Under the pieces are notes generated by a model. The model had not been told where the DNA came from, ran no database searches, and saw only the letters and a program-made list of their open reading frames with translations. Shown piece by piece: positions 23,962-36,654 of a stretch of 37,190 bases of DNA (the first letter of the stretch is position 1; each line of letters starts with the position of its first letter). The stretch comes from Candidatus Kuenenia stuttgartensis (lineage in GTDB: Bacteria > Planctomycetota > JAKEIC01 > DYIT01). The stretch spans positions 68,214-105,403 of the forward strand of contig DYIT01000002.1 of NCBI GenBank assembly GCA_020723505.1. The letters are read 5' to 3'. Made by a program: the position numbers and the translations under genes.

Positions 23962-24397
23962 CTCGAGACGATCGCGACCGGTCATAGGCCGAAGGATATT
24001 TCCACGGCTTTGCCCGATGCGTCCCTGCCGAATTCCACGGTCTTCTCCACGCGCCGGCCGTCCATGAAATTCTACTGAAAAACGCTGAAAAAAAGCTCCA
24101 TATGTATTCCCTCAGAATTGCGGGAATTTGTTTGACATGAAGAACCGTGATGGTGTAACTAGGAGTCCAGGGTCTAATAAATAACCGATTGAGGCAATTC
24201 CCATGAGTCGGGAACCGTTTAAACATCGCAGGTGAGCCGGCGCCGCGCCTGAGGGGCGCCGTGCGTCCCTCAAAGCGATATAGCGGTCCGGCCGGCTCAT
24301 CCTCGAACAACTGCACCATTCCGCCTCCAGCGGCCGTTCCGCAAGCGCCGGTTCATCCTCGAACAGACCGTCAGTTTTCATTTTTCGGAGGATGAAC
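23962..24397. other. Intergenic region and possible structured leader
   Basis: No convincing gene. On the minus strand 23982-24065 reads FMDGRRVEKTVEFGRDASG and ends at a TGA; it looks like the end of a lost protein. Bases 24230-24370 are GC-rich with several dyads (GGCGCC ... GGCGCC) and two copies of CCGG(C/T)TCATCCTCGAACA, so a long folded leader before the rhodanese gene is possible. Confidence 0.35.
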
Positions 24398-26404
24398 ATG
24401 AGCCCAGACACCCGTTTTATGTCCCGACTATGCGCCGCAGTCCTTTGCGCGGCGCTGGCCGCGGCCGCCGGCTGCACGAAGGAGGACGACGAAGACCCGC
24501 CGCCTCCCGACAACCCGGCCGCGAGCCTTCTCTGGAGCGCATCGACGCTGACCGACCAGATTGCCGGCAATTCCGTGGTAGTCCTCGACTGCCGCACCAC
24601 GGCATACAACACCAACGGGACCACCTACATACCCTATGACGTGGAGCACATCACCGGATCATACTGGTTCGATTTCAACCTATTTGGCGATCCCTATGTG
24701 ACAAACCAGGCCGGCATAACCTCGAGGCTGCAGGAGCTAGGGATTACCACTTCCACGAGGATATGCCTCTACGACGCCGGCATCGCCAATCCCCAGGGAA
24801 AGGTCTTCTACAACCTCGAGAGGCAGGGATGCACGGACGTTCACATACTCGACGGCGGATTCTCCGTCTGGAAGACCGCGGGAGGCCTTACGTCCACGAC
24901 CGCCACAACGCTACCGACCGCGTCCGTCTTCACGCCGGTCATCGACGACACATGCCACTACACTCTCACGGAGATGAAAACCGCGTACGACGCCGTTGCG
25001 GGCGGAGACACGAGCTACGCGTTGATAGACTACCGCGAGGCGCCCCTGTACTGGGGTCAGACGATATGCCCCGACGCGGTCCGGCACGGCCGCATGCCGA
25101 ATGCGAATCTGCTCGCATGGCAGGATTACTTCGATTCATCGACAAGCCTGTTCAAGACGAAGTCCGAGCTTGAGACCCTGACGACCGGAGCGGGGGGGAG
25201 CTCCTCCAAGACGAACGTGCTCATATGCAACAAGGGGTGGCGCACTGGAATCGCGTATTTCGTCCTCCGGCACATGGGCTGGCCGAAGTCGCAAATCCGG
25301 CACTATGTGGGCGGCATACGCGAATGGGCGGCCCAAACCCCCGCGACGTATCCGATGGTCACGGAAGGTTGCTACAACCGGGGCGTATCCATGCCTCCCG
25401 CAACGTCGGCCTCGAGGCGCTTGGCAGGATGCTCGGCCCAGATAGGCAACACCGTCTATTGCATAGGCGGTTATACCGCCAACACGACGGGAGGAGTCCA
25501 TTCCGCGCTGGTCCAGGCCTACGACATAGCCGCCGACACGTGGACCGACCTGACGTCGATGCCCGAGGCGATGGCGTTCTCCGCGGCAGCGGCGGTCGGC
25601 ACGAACATCTACGTCTTCGGCGGCCTCGACTCCACGAACACCGTGCGATCAACGGTCTATGTGTTCGACACCACCGCGGCCGCCGGCTTGGGCGCATGGG
25701 ACAACGGGCTAGTCGAGACCGCCCTCCCTGCGGCCAGGTTCAGCTTCGCGGCGACGGCAGTGGGGAGCACGATATATCTCGGCGGCGGCCTGACATCGAC
25801 GACGACGACGCTGGCAGCCAACTATTCCGACACATTCTACGCATATAACACGGTTTCCCACACCTACAACACGACCCTGCCTGTGCTTCCGGGAAGCCAT
25901 GGGAGGAGATGCCACGCTTTCACGGCCGACGGCACGAACGTCTATCTCGTGGGCGGGTTCTGGTACGACGAACTCGCCCCCGGGGGCGGCAACGCGTGCA
26001 AGAAGGACCTCGACGACTTCTACGTACTCGACACTACGAGCCCGACCGCCTGGACGGCCCTCGCAACCATGCCGGGCAAGGTGGCCGGGCATGGCGCAGT
26101 TGTCGTGACCGGAACGCCCAACAGGATCTTCGTGCCCGGCGCCTGGTGCATGCTCGGCACCAAAGCCGATGTCTACCAGTACAACATCGCCACGAACACG
26201 TGGGTGACGAAGCTCAAGAACACGCGTAGCGCCATGATAGGCTGGCCGCGGTACTGGTATTTCCTCGGCGCGAGCGGAACCGACATCGCCGTCATCGGCG
26301 GGTATTCGGCCGGGACCGGGAACATACTTACGACGCCTAACGCCGGAACGACGCATTACAACCAGACGTACGTATACGACTTGACCAATACGTTCGACAA
26401 TTGA
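24398..26404 (+). CDS. Lipoprotein with tandem rhodanese domains and Kelch repeats
   Basis: 668 residues from the second ATG (24398): GGAGG directly abuts the first one (24392) but lies 6 bp before this one. Lipobox AAGC with C26. Residues ~40-165 are a rhodanese domain whose catalytic position is Asp (LYDAGIANPQGK, D126), so it is inactive. Residues ~185-315 are a second rhodanese domain with an intact loop CNKGWRTG and catalytic C277. Residues ~330-668 are about five Kelch blades (IYVFGGLDS, VYLVGGFWY, IAVIGGYSA). The tandem-domain layout is that of thiosulfate/3-mercaptopyruvate sulfurtransferases, which bind sulfur or selenium as persulfide/perselenide. It precedes two candidate selenium genes. 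Confidence 0.85.
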   Translation: MSPDTRFMSRLCAAVLCAALAAAAGCTKEDDEDPPPPDNPAASLLWSASTLTDQIAGNSVVVLDCRTTAYNTNGTTYIPYDVEHITGSYWFDFNLFGDPYVTNQAGITSRLQELGITTSTRICLYDAGIANPQGKVFYNLERQGCTDVHILDGGFSVWKTAGGLTSTTATTLPTASVFTPVIDDTCHYTLTEMKTAYDAVAGGDTSYALIDYREAPLYWGQTICPDAVRHGRMPNANLLAWQDYFDSSTSLFKTKSELETLTTGAGGSSSKTNVLICNKGWRTGIAYFVLRHMGWPKSQIRHYVGGIREWAAQTPATYPMVTEGCYNRGVSMPPATSASRRLAGCSAQIGNTVYCIGGYTANTTGGVHSALVQAYDIAADTWTDLTSMPEAMAFSAAAAVGTNIYVFGGLDSTNTVRSTVYVFDTTAAAGLGAWDNGLVETALPAARFSFAATAVGSTIYLGGGLTSTTTTLAANYSDTFYAYNTVSHTYNTTLPVLPGSHGRRCHAFTADGTNVYLVGGFWYDELAPGGGNACKKDLDDFYVLDTTSPTAWTALATMPGKVAGHGAVVVTGTPNRIFVPGAWCMLGTKADVYQYNIATNTWVTKLKNTRSAMIGWPRYWYFLGASGTDIAVIGGYSAGTGNILTTPNAGTTHYNQTYVYDLTNTFDN

Positions 26405-26482: not shown

Positions 26483-27667
26483 ATGACCATGCGAATTCTG
26501 GCTGCGGCCGCATTGCTGGCCGCCGGGCTTGCGGTCGTCGCGGCCCAGCCGGCTCGCGCGGCGGACGCCTGAGGCAACGACCCCGGTTGCGTGACAACGC
26601 CCGCCGGCAGCGGCGGCGGAGGATACGCGGCTGGAACCGGCACGTTGTCGGAATCGTCCACTGGATCCATGTTCAGCGTCGGTATCGGGTGGACTTTCAC
26701 GGAAACCGAAACCGCCAGATACCACACCATCCCTGTCAGCGTGCAGGTCAGGCCGCTCGACTGGGCTATCTTCTCAATCCAGGTCCCCTTCACTTCGGTG
26801 TCCGGCAAGGAGACCTACTACGACCAAATCCTCGTAGGCGGCATACCGACCCTCAGGGAGACCGTGCTCTCTTATTCGAACGGCGGAATCGGCGACCTGG
26901 CGATATCCGCCTGGGCGGACTGCGCCCGTCTCCTTGGCCTTGTCCTGGGCGGCGGAGCGGGGAAAGCGGGCGAGACGAAAGCCGGTCCCCCCGGGAGCGC
27001 GGCGGGCGGAGGGGGCGCAGCGTCAGCGGGCTCGGCTGATCCTTTCGCCGGCGTCGGCCGGCCGATGCTCCTCATCGGGGCGGGAATCAAGCTTCCGACC
27101 GGGGAGCACGACGCAAGGGACGCGGATAAGTACGCGTTCGACAGGTCGAAGTCGCTCACAGGCGAATACAGCGAATCCGACGGAATCCTGCCGGTAGGAT
27201 ACGAACTGGGGTCCGGAACGACCGACTTCCAGTTCGGCGCGGCCTACCAGCAGCGTTTCTGGAGATTCGTGCTTTCGGGGGGGATCGCCTGTCAACTCTC
27301 GGGGGGCTCGAACAGCGTGGGGTACGAGCGGTCCGACATTGCGTCGCTCTCCATTGCCGTCAAATTCGTGCCGTTCTCTTCCGCGGGGGAGCTCGAGGCG
27401 TCGGTTCGCGCGGGCCTGAGCGGCATCATAGCGCTCGCCAGGGACATCGACCACTCGGAGAACACCGCTCTTCTGGGCAGGCAGGAACGGGGGCCTTTGA
27501 GCGGGTCAGGCAGGGATTACGCTTTCGCGGATATCGGAGCAGGCGTCGATTTCCTCGGCAACTTCAGTTTCGGGCTGGGGGCGAGGTTCCAGCTGAACGA
27601 GACCTCGGGCTCCTCGGCGAGCGCGTTCAAATACCAGTTCATCTGCACAATCGGCGCGCGCTTCTGA
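26483..27667 (+). CDS. Outer-membrane barrel-type protein with in-frame UGA after the signal peptide (candidate selenoprotein)
   Basis: An ATG at 26483 (or 26489) opens a classic signal peptide (MTMRILAAAALLAAGLAVV, cut near ARA-ADA). One codon later comes TGA (26570-26572), after which the frame runs on to 27665. Read through it gives 394 residues with UGA as residue 30, in A-D-A-UGA-G-N-D-P-G-C. The rest alternates hydrophobic strands and ends in an aromatic C-terminal strand (FICTIGARF), the signature of outer-membrane beta-barrels of the transporter/porin kind. Without readthrough the barrel would lack an export signal. A weak GUUG-CGUGA-CAAC hairpin lies ~17 nt past the UGA. It sits 78 bp past the rhodanese gene. 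Confidence 0.6.
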
Positions 27668-27817
27668 TTAAGGCTGTTCGCGAAGGACCTCGAACCACGG
27701 GTCGTCCGGGCGTGAACTGCCTGGAACTGGAGTTCAGAAGAACGGTTGATCCCGCTGGAGAATCAAGACCGGGTATTTTACTTAGGAGTGCATAATCAAG
27801 GTTTGAAAGGACCGGCA

Positions 27818-28957
27818 ATGGCGAACGACCATGCAGGACCGGGACGGCGATGGGACGTGCCGTACATTGTGAGCTCCGCTGCGATAGCCGCCATCGGCGT
27901 GCTCCTGATGAAGGGGGTCATGGAGAAGCTGTTCGGCATGACGGGCAATCCGCCGAACATGGGGCTTTGCATGAACTGCTTCCTTAGGGACATCGCCGGA
28001 TCAATCGGTCTCCACAAGGCCGACGTGGCATGGTATTTCAGGCCGGAAATCCCGGGTCTCGTCCTGGGGGCCTACCTCGCGTCGCTGCTCTTCCGGGAGC
28101 ACAGGCCGCAGGGCGGGCAGAACGGGCTGATTCGGTTCACGTTCGGCGCGTTCATGGGCGCAGGAGCCATGATGTTCCTCGGATGCACGACGAGGATGGG
28201 GCTTCGGCTCGGCGGGGGTGATTTCAACGCGCTGGTCGGATTCGCGGGGTTCGCGGCGGGGATCTACGCTGGCACGATATTCATCAGGAACGGCTTCTCG
28301 GCAGGCGACAAGAAGGATCTGCCGGTGGTGAACGGGGTTATCTTCCCGTTCGTTGCCGCGCTGTTCCTTGCCCTGTTCATCATCTTCGGGCCGGAGATTT
28401 TCAAGTATTCCGAGAAGGGCCCGGCTTCGATGCGCGCTCCGATTGCTGTCGCGATTGGCGCCGGAGTGCTCGCGGGCGGATTGGCCCACTGGGGGCGTTT
28501 CTGCTTCATGCGGCCGTTCCGGGATCTCTTCCTCATGAAGAGCGGGCGGCTGTTCGGAGGCCTGCTGGTGTTCATCCTTGTCGCGACGGCGCTCAACCTG
28601 GCGTTCGGCGAGTACCGGCCCGGCTTTTCGAACCAGGAGGACCGCATGGCGCACGCCAAGGTCCTCTGCAACCTGCTCGGGATGTTCACAGTAGGGCTCG
28701 CGGCCGTGTTCCTGGACGGCTGCCCCATACGGCAGGTCGTAAGGGCGGGCGCGGGCGACACGGACGCGGCAGTGACGGTCATGGGCATGATGGCGGCGCT
28801 GTCCATTTCCGACAACTTCGGCATCACATGCTCGCCCAAGGCCCAGCCGTTCTCGGCGGGCGTGGCCGTGAGCATAGGAATAGCGTGCATGATTACGCTC
28901 GCATTCTTCCATACGGACCTTTTCTGGAAATTGAAGGGCAAAGCGAAGAAGATATGA
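27818..28957 (+). CDS. yedE: YedE-family selenium transporter
   Basis: 379 residues from the ATG at 27818 with GAAAGGA upstream. Multi-spanning inner-membrane protein of the YeeE/YedE group. It carries the hallmarks of the selenium branch rather than the thiosulfate one: GNPPNMGLCMNCFLRDIAGS, then GLHKADVAWYFRPEIPGLVLG, GAMMFLGCTTRMGLRLGGGD and a C-terminal LDGCPIRQVVRAG. The conserved cysteines form the path thought to carry the chalcogen. YedE genes are a recognised genomic marker of selenium use. It stands between two genes with in-frame UGA codons. Confidence 0.9.
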   Translation: MANDHAGPGRRWDVPYIVSSAAIAAIGVLLMKGVMEKLFGMTGNPPNMGLCMNCFLRDIAGSIGLHKADVAWYFRPEIPGLVLGAYLASLLFREHRPQGGQNGLIRFTFGAFMGAGAMMFLGCTTRMGLRLGGGDFNALVGFAGFAAGIYAGTIFIRNGFSAGDKKDLPVVNGVIFPFVAALFLALFIIFGPEIFKYSEKGPASMRAPIAVAIGAGVLAGGLAHWGRFCFMRPFRDLFLMKSGRLFGGLLVFILVATALNLAFGEYRPGFSNQEDRMAHAKVLCNLLGMFTVGLAAVFLDGCPIRQVVRAGAGDTDAAVTVMGMMAALSISDNFGITCSPKAQPFSAGVAVSIGIACMITLAFFHTDLFWKLKGKAKKI

Positions 28958-29033: not shown

Positions 29034-30350
29034 ATGTCGAAGGAACACGAATCCCTGATGAAGGATTTGGGCGTCAACGTCGAGCTTCACGACAAGCTAA
29101 TCGCCCACGCGGACCGTCTGCATGACTCGACCTGCGGCAGGCAGAAGAACCGGCCGCGGGAGATGGCGCGCTTCGACGCGGCCGTAAGGGCGAGCCACGG
29201 CGGCAGGGTGAAGGAGATATACGAATATCGCAAGGCAGGGGGCAAGTCCATAGGGACGTTCTGCATCTACGTCCCGGACGAGATTGCGCTGGCGGCGAAA
29301 GTACTTCCCATTCCGCTCTGCGGGGGCTCGGGCTGGCCGGTGGACTACGCCGACAAGATGTTCCCGCGCGACATCTGCCCTCTGGTGAGGTCGACATTCG
29401 GCATGTCGTTCAGCGGGACGTGACCCTACAAGAAGCTCAAGGATTTCGCCGTTGGCGAAACCACATGCGACGCGAAGAAGAAGGCGTGGGACCTCCTTGG
29501 ATTCAAGGTCATGGAAGTGCCGCAGAAGAAAAACCAGGTCGACGCGGATTTGTGGCGGGGGGAGATCGCCGCGTTCCGGGATGCGGTCGAAGGCCTGTCG
29601 GGGGCAAAGGTGACGAAGGAACGTCTTGCGGACTCAATCAGGCTCGTGAACCGGAAAAGGAGGGCGCTCGGGGCGGTGAATGCGTTCCGCAGGCTCGAGG
29701 AGCCGCCGATAAGCGGGCTGGATGCGCTGCTCGTCTCGCAGGCGGCGCTCAACATGGACGTGAAGGCGTTCTGCGAGGCAGCGGAGGCCCTGGCCGGCGA
29801 GCTCGAGGACAGGGCGAGGCGCGGGATTTCGGCCTACGAGGCGCCCGGGCCGAGGGTGATGATTGCAGGCACGCCTTCGCCGATGGGGAACGCCAAAGTC
29901 CATTACGTTGTCGAATCGTCGGGCATGCGGATTGTGGCGGACGAGTCGTGCACGGGCGTGAGATATTACCGGGACCTCGTGGACGAGTCGCCTTCCGACC
30001 TTGGCGGGATGGTTCGCGCCGTTGCGGACAGGTATTTCAAAATCGACTGCGCATGCTTCTCGCCGAACAAGGAGCGCTTCGACAACGCCGCGGCGCTGGC
30101 GAAGGAGTACCGCGTGCAGGGGGTGGTGCACAACATCCTCCAGTTCTGCCACGGCTTCAACGTGGAATCCAAGGCGCTGGAGAACGCGTTGGCGGCGTCC
30201 GGGATTCCTTCGCTCAAGATTGTGACGGACTATTCCGAGGAGGACATCGAACAGCTCAAAGTGAGGGCGGAGACCTTCTGCGAGCTCCTGAAGGCAGGGC
30301 GGCAGGCGGCGGGCGCGGCTCCGCAGGCCGCGCAAGGGAAGGCCGGCTGA
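29034..30350 (+). CDS. Double-cubane-cluster / 2-hydroxyacyl-CoA dehydratase-family protein with in-frame UGA (candidate selenoprotein)
   Basis: The frame from ATG 29034 (AAGGAA upstream) to 30350 has one TGA (29421-29423); read through it is 438 residues, normal for the family. N-terminal half: FCIYVPDEIALAAKVLPIPL, then C115 in DICPLVRS, residue 130 = UGA in MSFSGT-UGA-PYKKLKDF, and C145 in GETTCDAKKK. Relatives with a double-cubane [8Fe-9S] cluster have Cys where the UGA is. C-terminal half has the activity-domain motifs (ADESCTGVRYYRDLV, CACFSPNKERF, ILQFCHGFNVE). A strong hairpin UUUCGCC-GUU-GGCGAAA (29444-29460) has its loop 27 nt past the UGA. These enzymes carry out low-potential two-electron reductions. 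It follows the selenium transporter by 76 bp. Confidence 0.8.
29444..29460 (+). promoter_or_regulatory. Candidate bacterial SECIS hairpin
   Basis: Perfect 7-bp stem TTTCGCC/GGCGAAA with a GTT loop, 27 nt from the in-frame TGA at 29421-29423. As I recall the bacterial SECIS consensus, it asks for a 3-14-nt loop with G among its first two bases, 16-37 nt after UGA; this hairpin satisfies it. It lies inside the coding region, as bacterial SECIS elements do. Confidence 0.6.
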
Positions 30351-30534
30351 AAGTGACCGGCCGCGGCCGTGCGCCGCGACATGACGTCAGTTGATAGTAT
30401 GATTCCGCTTAACCGGAAGCGGAACGACGCTGAAACCCCGTTTGGATTGATGTCCCCAGATTCCCGTCACCCAGCCCGGACTTTTCCGGAACCAAGGATG
30501 TCTGTTGATTCCGGATGGTCGGGGTCATGGACGG
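30351..30534. other. Intergenic stretch after the dehydratase-like gene
   Basis: No gene is supported here. It contains short GC-rich dyads only, and leads directly into the inverted-repeat element. Confidence 0.4.
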
Positions 30535-30640
30535 CGTCATTCCGGCGAAAGCCGGAATCCAGTTCTCCTGTTCGCTTGAAAACAACCACGGGCTGCATAT
30601 TCACGCATGTCTGCCTGGATTCCCGTTTCGATGGAATGAC
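30535..30640. mobile_element. Small terminal-inverted-repeat element (MITE/REP-like)
   Basis: Begins GTCATTCCGGCGAAAGCCGG and ends CTGGATTCCCGTTTCGATGG plus AATGAC. The ends are ~26-bp imperfect inverted repeats around ~53 bp. The GTCATTCC...GGAATGAC type is a very widespread intergenic repeat in diverse bacteria. No coding capacity. Confidence 0.7.
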
Positions 30641-31140: not shown

Positions 31141-31172
31141 TTGACAATTATAAGCATATGTTCATAATATGC
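31141..31172 (+). promoter_or_regulatory. Strong promoter with dyad, upstream of DUF134 gene
   Basis: Perfect TTGACA (31141-31146), then an AT-rich -10 region (CATAATAT, spacing 16-18 bp). A dyad GCATAT-N7-ATATGC (31154-31172) overlaps the -10 and would suit a dimeric regulator, such as the DUF134 protein encoded just downstream. An AAAGGAGG ribosome-binding site follows at ~31189. Confidence 0.65.
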
Positions 31173-31199
31173 ACTAGGAAAGACGAGAAAGGAGGACAA

Positions 31200-31835
31200 A
31201 TGCCCCGGCCGTGCTGCTGCAGGAGGATAGCCTTGAAGCCCGCATGCACCAGTTTCGGGCCGCGGGGCGGGCCTTCGGGGAAAGGCGGGCAGATCGTGCT
31301 CGCGCTAGACGAGTTGGAGGCGCTGCGGCTTGCCGACCTCGAGGGGCTGTACCAGGAGGAGGCTGCGCGAAAGATGGGCGTTTCCCGGCCCACGTTCGCG
31401 CGTATAGTGGAATCTGCGCGGAGCAAGGCGGCCCGCATGCTCGTGTTCGGCGAGGCGCTGAGAGTGGCGGGCGGCAACGTCGAGTACGAGGGATCCGCGC
31501 CCCGCAGGTGCCCGTCATGCAGGCGCGAAGGCGCACAGAGCGGAGGTTTGTGCTGCGCCTGCAGGAGCAGGACGGCTGGGAAGGAAGAACCGCGGTGCGG
31601 CCGGAAAGACCCGGCCCTGGAACAAGGAAAGAAACGGCGCCGCTCCGGAGGGCTTGCGCCCGCCGGCAAGAAGGCTGCTCTATCGTCACTTCGTGAAAAT
31701 ATTAATGTGGAAATTGAAAAGAAAATTCCGGTTCCCGGGTCATTACTCATGCGCGAGGCGCATGGAATAACCCGGAAGAGCCTGAATTGTGTCCTGTTTG
31801 ATTCCGGCTCGTCCGGGTTAGGAGGAATGACATGA
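31200..31835 (+). CDS. DUF134-family regulator with zinc-ribbon and extended tail
   Basis: 211 residues from the ATG at 31200 (AAAGGAGG 4 bp upstream). N-terminal MPRPCCCRRI and LALDELEALRLADLEGLYQEEAARKMGVSRPTFARI form the DUF134 sigma-70-region-4-like HTH. Then a Cys cluster (CPSCRREGAQSGG, CCAC) may bind zinc or another metal. Typical DUF134 proteins are ~100-130 residues; here ~100 more follow, and the palindromic repeat at 31732-31777 lies inside that tail. The stop overlaps the next start (ATGA). DUF134 genes commonly pair with NifX-like genes, as here. Confidence 0.82.
   Translation: MPRPCCCRRIALKPACTSFGPRGGPSGKGGQIVLALDELEALRLADLEGLYQEEAARKMGVSRPTFARIVESARSKAARMLVFGEALRVAGGNVEYEGSAPRRCPSCRREGAQSGGLCCACRSRTAGKEEPRCGRKDPALEQGKKRRRSGGLAPAGKKAALSSLRENINVEIEKKIPVPGSLLMREAHGITRKSLNCVLFDSGSSGLGGMT
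31732..31777. repeat. Palindromic repeat inside the DUF134 reading frame
   Basis: Imperfect inverted repeat TTCCCGGGTCATTACTCATG ... CATGGAATAACCCGGAA around a GCGC-GAG-GCGC core. A related unit (CCCGGATCATACCATGCGC-TTC-GCGCATG) lies at ~7473-7498. It adds about 15 codons to the reading frame without breaking it. Confidence 0.55.
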
Positions 31836-32215
31836 AACTTTGCATCCCGGTTACCGAAGACAAAGGAATAAAAAGTCCCGTTTGCGGCCATTTCGGGTCA
31901 GCGGCTTTGTTCATGGTCGTGGAAACCGACACAGGCTCGTGCAGGGCAATACCCAACCGCAACCTCCATCACCAGCACGGAATGTGCATGCCGCTGGCGT
32001 CCCTCGAGGGCGAGGACATCGACGGCATAATCGCCGGCGGAATCGGCATGGGCGCGCTCATGAAGATTCAGGCCGCGGGGCTCAAGGTCTTCATCGCGGA
32101 GCAGCCTACGGTGGAAGAGGCGGTAGCGTCCTACAAGGCGGGTACCCTGGCCGAGGCCACCCCCGGCAACGCTTGCCACGGGCACGGGCCTCACGGCCAC
32201 GGGCCTTGCGGGTAG
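31832..32215 (+). CDS. NifX/NifB-C-terminal-like dinitrogenase-cofactor-type protein
   Basis: 127 residues. RNase-H-like fold of the dinitrogenase FeMo-cofactor biosynthesis family: MKLCIPVTEDKGIKSPVCGHFG at the start, then EDIDGIIAGGIGMGALMKIQ and GLKVFIAE. Members bind Fe-S or metal-cofactor precursors; most are found outside nitrogen fixers. The C-terminus HGHGPHGHGPCG is a His-rich metal-binding tail. Coupled to DUF134 by ATGA, which probably regulates it. Confidence 0.88.
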   Translation: MKLCIPVTEDKGIKSPVCGHFGSAALFMVVETDTGSCRAIPNRNLHHQHGMCMPLASLEGEDIDGIIAGGIGMGALMKIQAAGLKVFIAEQPTVEEAVASYKAGTLAEATPGNACHGHGPHGHGPCG

Positions 32216-34601: not shown

Positions 34602-35253
34602 GTCCCGCTCCTCCCGTCGATTCGGGGGGAGCCATGGCCTGAAAAGGCCTGCTCGGCCGATAGCCCCGCCCACCAGTCCCAAGAGCAACTCAATCCTGAC
34701 TATCTTACCATTTGAAGACGGATTACATAACGCAGCCGAGCCGCAACCCAGCGCTGAAGAGTCGGGCGCGGAGCCGGTCGGGCCGGCAACCGGCAAGGGA
34801 GTCGTGGGGTTTTGGAAGGACTTGCAAGACGGTGAAATCGCCCGACGGCACATCAGAGAAAATTTAAGCGCCCGTCGCCCGAAGATTCCGGACTCTTCGC
34901 CCCGGGTTTGCCTGATTGTCGGCACGAGCCGCCCACGCAAGGGGTTTGTGTGCAAATCTCCCATGTGTGGTTTGCGCACGACCGGACCATGCAGTCAGAA
35001 AGTCAAGGCCCCGACAGACCGGAACCGGATTTTGCTTTTTTGGCCCACGGCGCCGGTAATTCAGCCATAACTCATTAAATTTCATGGATTTGAGATGCAG
35101 CACCGGGCCATCCCGCATCATGCGTCCTGCACGGCTGTTTCAACCTTAACATGGCGTGGAAATTGCTAATCAGCATCTGATGTCTCAAACGTCCGGGCCG
35201 GTCGGATACCCGGGCTTCGAGACCAAGAACGGCAAGTCTTGGGGGAGTTGGAA
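34602..35253. other. Intergenic region
   Basis: About 650 bases with no recognised gene. Frames on both strands are partly open but show no family resemblance or ribosome-binding site. The 3' part leads into the ferredoxin gene, whose GGGGGAG ribosome-binding site is at ~35241-35247. Confidence 0.4.
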
Positions 35254-35940
35254 ATGAACGATTCGGAAGCGGCAACTCTCAGAGGCGGAGTGCAGGATCA
35301 TGGGCCGGGGGAAACCGGGCATGCGGAATGCGGATTCGCAGGGTCGGCGGTCTCTGACGCGCATCGCGAATCCGGCGCGCGTGGTGCAGCGCAGCTGAAG
35401 GAGACGGCGACATCGGCCGGGAGGATTGCGGCGGCACCGTCCGTATCCGGCGTCCAGTCCGTGCAAGGCGGTACGATGCGAATCCGCCGCCGCGTCCAGG
35501 CGGACGCAAAGGATATCGGGCGGGTCCTCAAGAAGATTCTCGATCTGCCGGTGCCGCCCGTCGCAAGGTGCAGGCTGCTTTCCTCGGGTTTTTCCGCGAC
35601 TCACATGCTGAACGTCTCGGTGCGCCTCGAGGGATCAAGGGCCTGCCTCGGTTGCGGCAACTGTATCGACGTCTGCGGCCTTCTTTCACGCGAACCCAAG
35701 AGGCTGAATCGGACGGCGCAGAGGTCGTCGATGGCTCTCGAGACCATGGTCGAAAAGGACTGCGACAGGTGCGACAACTGCGTCCTCGCCTGCCCCCAGG
35801 TCGACACGACCATCAAGCACCACATCGTATCCGGCAAGATGGTGGAGCAGATGGAGAGGCTTCTGGAAATGGCTTCGGCGGACGAAACCGACTGGTTCGA
35901 CTGGCACGCCGGGGCGGAAACCGGTCTGGACGGGGAGTAG
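35254..35940 (+). CDS. Ferredoxin-like 2x[4Fe-4S] protein with long N-terminal extension
   Basis: 228 residues from the ATG at 35254 (GGGGGAG upstream). The first ~75 residues are low-complexity (Gly/Ala/Ser-rich). Then RIRRRVQADAKDIGRVLKKIL and two clusters: CLGCGNCIDVCGLL and CDRCDNCVLACPQ, each CX2CX2CX3C. It would pass electrons to or from the flavoprotein complex encoded downstream. First gene of a three-gene (or longer) operon cut by the window end. Confidence 0.82.
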   Translation: MNDSEAATLRGGVQDHGPGETGHAECGFAGSAVSDAHRESGARGAAQLKETATSAGRIAAAPSVSGVQSVQGGTMRIRRRVQADAKDIGRVLKKILDLPVPPVARCRLLSSGFSATHMLNVSVRLEGSRACLGCGNCIDVCGLLSREPKRLNRTAQRSSMALETMVEKDCDRCDNCVLACPQVDTTIKHHIVSGKMVEQMERLLEMASADETDWFDWHAGAETGLDGE

Positions 35941-35979
35941 GCGCAATCCGGCGCATCGCCGGGAAGGAAAGCTGCTGAC

Positions 35980-36654
35980 ATGAGCGAAGTCGAGATCTCC
36001 ATAATGGGCGACATGGTCAAGGTTCCCGAGTCCCTGACCATAATTCAGGCGCTGGAGCATGCGGGCTATCGGCTGGTGCACGGGGTGGGCTGCAGGGGGG
36101 GATTCTGCGGCGCCTGCGCGACCGTGTTCCGCCGCGCGGGCGATTCGACTCTGCGGTTCGGGCTAGCCTGCCAGACCGTGGTCGAGAACGGGATGACTCT
36201 CGCGATGATTCCGTTCTATCCCGGCCACAGGCCCGAATACCGCATCGAGGACCTTTCGGCCGACGGCGACCAGGTCCTGGAGATCTATCCGGAGCTGGTG
36301 AAGTGCTTCGGATGCAACACGTGCACGAAGTCGTGCCCGCAGGGGATAGACGTGCTGGCGTCGGTATCGGCCGTTCTCAGGGGCAGGCTGGAGGATGCGG
36401 CCGACCTCTCGTTCGACTGCATCGCATGCGGTCTCTGCGCGTCGAGGTGCCCTGCGGAGCTCGTGAAGCACAACGTGACCCTGTTGAGCCGCCGCCTCTA
36501 CGGCAGGAACCTGGTGCGGAGGTCGGCGCATCTGGAGAAGAGGCGTGCGGAAATCCGGGAGGGGGTCTTCGACGGCGCATTAGGGGAATTGAAGGCCTCG
36601 CCGGTGGAGGCGCTGAAGAAGCGCTATGAGGCGCGAGTCGTAGAAGCGGATTGA
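35980..36654 (+). CDS. Fumarate reductase / succinate dehydrogenase iron-sulfur subunit-like protein
   Basis: 224 residues. N-terminal plant-type [2Fe-2S] domain with CRGGFCGACATVF (CX4CX2C) and a later Cys (GLACQTVVE). C-terminal domain with CFGCNTCTKSCPQG and CIACGLCASRCPAE, two [4Fe-4S]-type motifs. This is the layout of FrdB/SdhB, and of TfrB from thiol:fumarate reductase; the extra cluster and absence of membrane subunits so far favour a soluble reductase. Followed 11 bp later by the flavoprotein subunit gene. Confidence 0.85.
   Translation: MSEVEISIMGDMVKVPESLTIIQALEHAGYRLVHGVGCRGGFCGACATVFRRAGDSTLRFGLACQTVVENGMTLAMIPFYPGHRPEYRIEDLSADGDQVLEIYPELVKCFGCNTCTKSCPQGIDVLASVSAVLRGRLEDAADLSFDCIACGLCASRCPAELVKHNVTLLSRRLYGRNLVRRSAHLEKRRAEIREGVFDGALGELKASPVEALKKRYEARVVEAD

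Follow-up and report, generated by a model that had tools for sequence, protein, structure and literature searches.

The window, a stretch of 37,190 nt, contains a run of four plus-strand genes separated by gaps of 76–186 bp, in the order rhodanese–Kelch protein, outer-membrane-like protein, YedE and a double-cubane-cluster protein (DCCP) whose coding sequence is interrupted by a TGA predicted to specify selenocysteine (Sec) (Table 1). The reading frame extends from ATG 29034 as far as TGA 30348–30350 with TGA 29421–29423 as the sole interruption, and the start is supported by an RBS-like AAGGA upstream as well as by two UGA-bearing orthologues, L060 and L061, that begin at the equivalent Met. 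In a profile search the read-through product scores 390.6 bits against NF040772 (‘double-cubane-cluster-containing anaerobic reductase’), above the curated cut-off of 350, and 323 bits against PF06050, and it matches 6ENO/7YYL over the whole length (E ~1e-103 by phmmer, 1e-174 by profile). By these matches the ORF is a member of the DCCP family, which confirms the first-pass annotation in its account of a 438-residue family member split by one in-frame TGA. The codon stands in the context SFSGT-U-PYKKLKDF, flanked by C115 and C145, and its column corresponds to the Cys of ‘RICPYFQV’ in 6ENO (chain-sequence position 129). Elsewhere in the window, a palindromic dispersed-repeat-like stretch lies downstream of the gene at 30530–30560 (TTCCGGCGAAAGCCGGAATCC), one frame of which reads VIPAKAGIQ, a peptide frame that recurs in locus L052 (9315–9833) of the same genome; at 31158–32215 a DUF134 protein is followed by a protein with a dinitrogenase iron-molybdenum cofactor (NifX-like) domain, and two ferredoxin-type iron-sulfur proteins (HdrC/fumarate-reductase-B-like) are encoded at 35239–36654, near the contig end.

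Table 1. Features of the Sec-DCCP locus, in window coordinates
Feature	Position	Strand	Basis or remark
Exported tandem rhodanese + Kelch protein	24392..26404	+	PF00581, Kelch
Outer-membrane-protein-like gene	26591..27667	+	Same gene run; place matches counterpart in L087
YedE, putative selenium transporter	27746..28957	+	TIGR04112, 349.6 bits (cut-off 200); 76 bp upstream of Sec-DCCP
Sec-containing DCCP gene (predicted)	29034..30350	+	438 aa, Sec at 130; profile and structure-sequence matches
In-frame TGA, predicted Sec codon (residue 130)	29421..29423	+	TGA also in L060 and L061; Cys in nearest homologues
bSECIS-like hairpin GG-A(bulge)-TTTCGCC-GTT-GGCGAAA-CC	29441..29462	+	Folding, synonymous-site conservation; presence alone not diagnostic
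Cys77, presumed cluster ligand	29262..29264	+	Conserved in NF040772 members and BzdN
Cys115, presumed cluster ligand	29376..29378	+	NF040772 members and BzdN alignments
Cys145, presumed cluster ligand	29466..29468	+	NF040772 members and BzdN alignments
Cys306, presumed cluster ligand	29949..29951	+	NF040772 members and BzdN alignments
Cys339, presumed cluster ligand	30048..30050	+	NF040772 members and BzdN alignments
Cys372, presumed cluster ligand (QFC motif)	30147..30149	+	12-row alignment, BzdN comparison

Scanning the GTDB contigs of 84,980 species with one fixed pattern, TGA-N30-(A/G)E(T/N)TCD(A/G)KK, which would overlook a UGA placed at another Cys column or followed by a different 3′ sequence, we obtained two matches. 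Each is a full-length orthologue whose TGA occupies the same codon. These are L060, from Fibrobacterota MAG CSMAG_2808, and L061, from Chitinivibrionales MAG PL23a_bin.29; both belong to Fibrobacterota, a phylum different from that of the window genome, and their identity with the window protein is 67% and 65%, respectively, against 77% between the two. Sec-type DCCPs are known from these three genomes only. Matches were found in 13 of all 168 Fibrobacterota genomes searched, a set that does not include the window genome, and the other Fibrobacterota matches had no internal stop, save one distant paralogue with a TAA. Within the window's own phylum, 392 genomes were covered and the TGA pattern occurred in none besides the window genome, and scans of viral contigs returned neither a TGA match nor relatives. 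A TGA on another contig of the window genome (G000:C195), considered as a further case, was rejected as the terminal stop of its gene. The tree unites the three Sec proteins in a single clade (100/100) nested among Cys-bearing proteins; Cys-Pro-Tyr is found at column 130 in each of the eleven nearest homologues besides these, and C130-P131-Y132 is invariant in the 12-row alignment. The protein part after the UGA is under strong purifying selection, with pN of 0.15–0.24 vs pS of 0.79–1.03. An ordinary stop, whether from a pseudogene, a sequencing error or a division into two separate proteins, could draw on the downstream ATG 29511, which starts a 279-aa ORF, but the TGA is common to three independent assemblies from two phyla, purifying selection acts on both sides of it, and it falls on a Cys column in a genome with Sec machinery. 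We give this reading practically no credence, and the two further TGA orthologues together with purifying selection led us to reject pseudogene, split gene and sequencing error alike.

All four of selA, selB, selC and selD are present in the window genome (4.95 Mb in 207 contigs, 89% complete, 4.4% contamination): a tRNA-Sec with anticodon UCA scores 71.3 bits (cut-off 47), SelA 544.5 bits and SelD 347.5 bits, and two SelB genes lie above the cut-off with a third just below. The SelD gene carries an in-frame TGA of its own, which falls in the catalytic site CAG-U-AGK, and it is therefore very probable that this genome decodes UGA as Sec outside the DCCP gene too. Alongside the one tRNA-Sec detected, the three selB-like genes (G000:C89:26278-28161, C55:9739-10866 and C170:23440-25287) could represent paralogues or contamination. 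A tRNA-Sec(UCA) was found in the genomes of both L060 and L061; of these Fibrobacterota genomes, G295 has two SelB genes that exceed the cut-off, and the SelB-like match in G294 (196 bits) is incomplete and falls below it. The G295 selB genes (G295:C244:31447-33590 and G295:C6:8636-12088) each have their own tRNA-Sec (UCA) nearby, so that this genome possibly holds two Sec-decoding systems. Such duplicated tRNA-Sec/SelB loci, along with the several SelB-like genes of the window genome, could mean that decoding is unusual and that UGA is read as Cys or Trp through a suppressor tRNA or an altered genetic code. We consider this very improbable: UGA also terminates genes in the window genome, ORF 29034–30350 included, the set of SelA, SelB and tRNA-Sec(UCA) is complete, and SelD has Sec at its classical site.

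The perfect 7-bp hairpin with a GUU loop reported in the first-pass annotation is present (TTTCGCC 29444–29450, GTT 29451–29453, GGCGAAA 29454–29460, extended outwards by GG/CC pairing beyond a bulged A), and the 27 nt given there as its distance from the UGA applies to the start of the loop, the 7-bp stem itself beginning at 20 nt. Its MFE is −11.1 kcal/mol, and z is −3.6 over the 30 nt of the hairpin, weakening to −1.8 over 50 nt. A check against bSECIS rules (loop 3–9 nt, stem 4–16 bp, G in the first two loop positions, spacing 16–37 nt, MFE ≤ −7.5; PMC13188914) showed that the window hairpin satisfies them all, with a 3-nt loop, a 7-bp stem, G first and 27-nt spacing, a full fit that among the three Sec genes is seen in the window gene alone, as the L060 and L061 hairpins reach an MFE of only −5.8 and −6.7 and miss the energy rule. 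In a control, several Cys homologues also folded hairpins that pass these rules, which makes the presence of the hairpin weak evidence, and we rejected it as proof of a SECIS by itself. Codon conservation across species is stronger: same-residue codons are identical in all three Sec genes at 5/7 hairpin positions vs 30/237 elsewhere (Fisher P = 8e-4), and the hairpin codons are conserved even though GC3 is 0.84 in the window gene and 0.40–0.44 in L060/L061. Synonymous-codon randomisation of the three Sec genes singly gave P = 0.007, 0.05 and 0.13, a further reason not to take the hairpin as proof on its own, and we drew on its codon conservation between species alone. Where the window hairpin has its outer GG/CC pair, L061 has AG/CU. 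Taken together, the machinery, the Sec-type SelD, the two further UGA orthologues, purifying selection, the hairpin codons and the Cys of the nearest homologues strongly support decoding of UGA 29421–29423 as selenocysteine, which on this comparative evidence we regard as almost certain; SelB and tRNA-Sec would read the codon, with the hairpin 27 nt downstream serving as SECIS.

The HGD-D/DCCP superfamily is the home of the [8Fe-9S] double-cubane enzymes. From its family, the window protein very likely adopts the DCCP fold, with [8Fe-9S] held by six Cys, and would draw its energy from an activase (DCCP reductase) that hydrolyses ATP and whose gene lies elsewhere in the genome; with the decoding step included it is still very likely that the gene encodes a selenoprotein version of DCCP. 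In the alignments, the only Cys columns common to the window DCCP and BzdN are six, 77, 115, 145, 306, 339 and 372, and the [8Fe-9S] cluster of BzdN has six cysteine ligands (PMC11971306). At column 130 BzdN has Phe; among more distant DCCPs a clade of 11 has Asn there while retaining the other six Cys, and others have Ala, Tyr or His. An alignment of the family at the UGA column, proposed in the first-pass annotation, thus showed Cys in the eleven nearest homologues and 6ENO; further DCCP-like proteins carry Asn, Tyr, His or Ala. Since the six Cys shared with BzdN suffice, and BzdN has Phe and some DCCPs Asn, residue 130 probably does not serve as a ligand to cluster iron. The topology, with a helix following C115 and a strand preceding C145, would place it at the domain end away from the cluster. 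AlphaFold models built from the single sequence and from a three-row alignment (mean pLDDT 35 and 39.5) were too poor to place residue 130 and were discarded.

These comparisons do not support the first-pass proposal that selenium lies at or next to the [8Fe-9S] cluster. A Sec selenolate bound to cluster iron, or in van der Waals contact with it, would tune a nitrogenase-like cofactor, and residue 130 does stand between the presumed ligands Cys115 and Cys145; moreover, Cys130 is often accompanied by Cys341, two residues from presumed ligand 339. This association fails, however, in the Fibrobacterota Cys clade, where Cys130 occurs with Ile341, and we consider such contact unlikely given the all-Cys ligation of BzdN with its Phe at column 130, the six other Cys kept by the Asn-clade DCCPs, and the helix (~116–127) and ensuing strand (~137–143) that would put residue 130 roughly 18–20 Å from Cys115/145. 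A similarly doubtful variant has Sec130 touching or ligating [8Fe-9S] in some state, or bringing a perselenide, for ATP-driven super-reduction of selenium/sulfur compounds; were Sec130 to touch the cluster, the result would be a selenium-tuned, nitrogenase-like cofactor. We favour, with some confidence, a Sec130 that takes the place of a non-ligand Cys and would use its selenol for redox chemistry or to transfer chalcogen rather than to bind iron.

The gene adjoining the Sec-DCCP is the only yedE of the window genome, and its match to TIGR04112, a ‘putative’ transporter family, upholds the earlier description of this neighbour as a selenium transporter. Rhodanese sequences recur as well: the rhodanese part of the rhodanese–Kelch protein matches (E = 1e-13) the rhodanese beside the Sec-DCCP in L087, a G295 locus with the order Sec-DCCP, exported tandem rhodanese, outer-membrane-like protein. 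The outer-membrane-like gene of the window matched no Pfam family and has no detectable sequence similarity to its positional counterpart in L087; on the short contig of L060 no selenium genes were seen. Several activases (TIGR00241) score above the cut-off in the window genome, none of them adjoining the Sec-DCCP. In G295 an activase (G295:C9) lies inside a yedF-yedE-tusA-like cluster and is 66% identical to the activase beside a fused DCCP of the window genome. This second, Cys-type fused DCCP is present in all three Sec-DCCP genomes, the copies of the window genome and G295 being 71% identical.

Loci L052:3676-8974 (G000:C44) and L087:6134-10879 share a gene set comprising a methyltransferase, a protein of the HGD-D type and an 866-aa protein in which two HGD-D domains are fused, with a DCCP at its end; an activase comes next in the window genome, and in G295 the set adjoins the Sec-DCCP. 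A Cys-type DCCP of the window genome (L051:6597-10366, 475 bits) has a reductive-dehalogenase-like iron-sulfur protein on its upstream side, and an apparent cobalt-type ECF transporter follows it.

The YedE, activase-cluster and rhodanese neighbours, along with selenium links in the literature, lead us to favour, tentatively, a role in selenium/sulfur assimilation, in which the protein may carry out ATP-driven reduction of a selenium or sulfur compound imported via YedE and the exported rhodanese. Among those links, Zhang and co-workers associated 2-hydroxyglutaryl-CoA dehydratase-like and activase genes with selenium genes (PMC5322559), and another paper lists DCCP and DCCP reductase as putative selenium-metabolism genes (PMC10418091). 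We hold it no less conceivable, though short of an even chance, that Sec is decoded with no special tie to selenium metabolism and simply improves on a Cys whose role is to protect or tune an anaerobic reductase of some organic substrate: the nearest relatives use Cys, DCCPs reduce acetylene, azide and hydrazine (PMC11971306), and neighbours vary by genome, L060's short contig having no selenium genes. Against this stand the YedE adjoining the Sec-DCCP in the window, the G295 activase in its yedF-yedE-tusA-like cluster, the rhodanese beside the gene in two phyla, and the literature tying DCCP to selenium clusters.

The closest known system, the DCCP of Carboxydothermus hydrogenoformans (6ENO, 7YYL), resembles the window protein in its full length, its six presumed ligand Cys and its C-P-Y motif, and differs in having Cys where the window protein has the predicted Sec130. 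BzdN of class I benzoyl-CoA reductase (8S02) and HadC (3O3M) share the HGD-D fold family, and BzdN is also like DCCP in its [8Fe-9S] on six Cys, but both lack Cys or Sec at column 130, work with partner subunits on CoA esters and match with far lower scores. A Sec-bearing nitrogenase component I alpha (TIGR01862, RxU motif; PMC13188914) likewise combines UGA/Sec with a complex iron-sulfur cofactor family, although its sequence family is unrelated to DCCP and it is known from GenBank annotation only. The selenium-linked clusters of DCCP and DCCP reductase (PMC10418091, PMC5322559) contain the same enzyme pair, and the passages cited mention no UGA in the DCCP gene. Neither the HGD-D nor the DCCP family is among the 119 prokaryotic selenoprotein families of a 2026 compilation (PMC13188914), whose table includes families cited to two papers by Haft and co-workers and whose text contains neither PF06050 nor NF040772. 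A link of DCCP to selenium metabolism had already been drawn, and the selenoprotein form is absent from that catalogue.

As far as the 2026 catalogue and the literature searched show, the predicted Sec-DCCP would be the first selenoprotein of the HGD-D/DCCP superfamily. In replacing Cys with Sec, nature singles out residue 130 as chemically important, though it is outside the six presumed iron ligands. To our knowledge, the archetype DCCP has no known physiological function, and the neighbours of the Sec-DCCP strengthen the idea that DCCPs act in selenium/sulfur handling.
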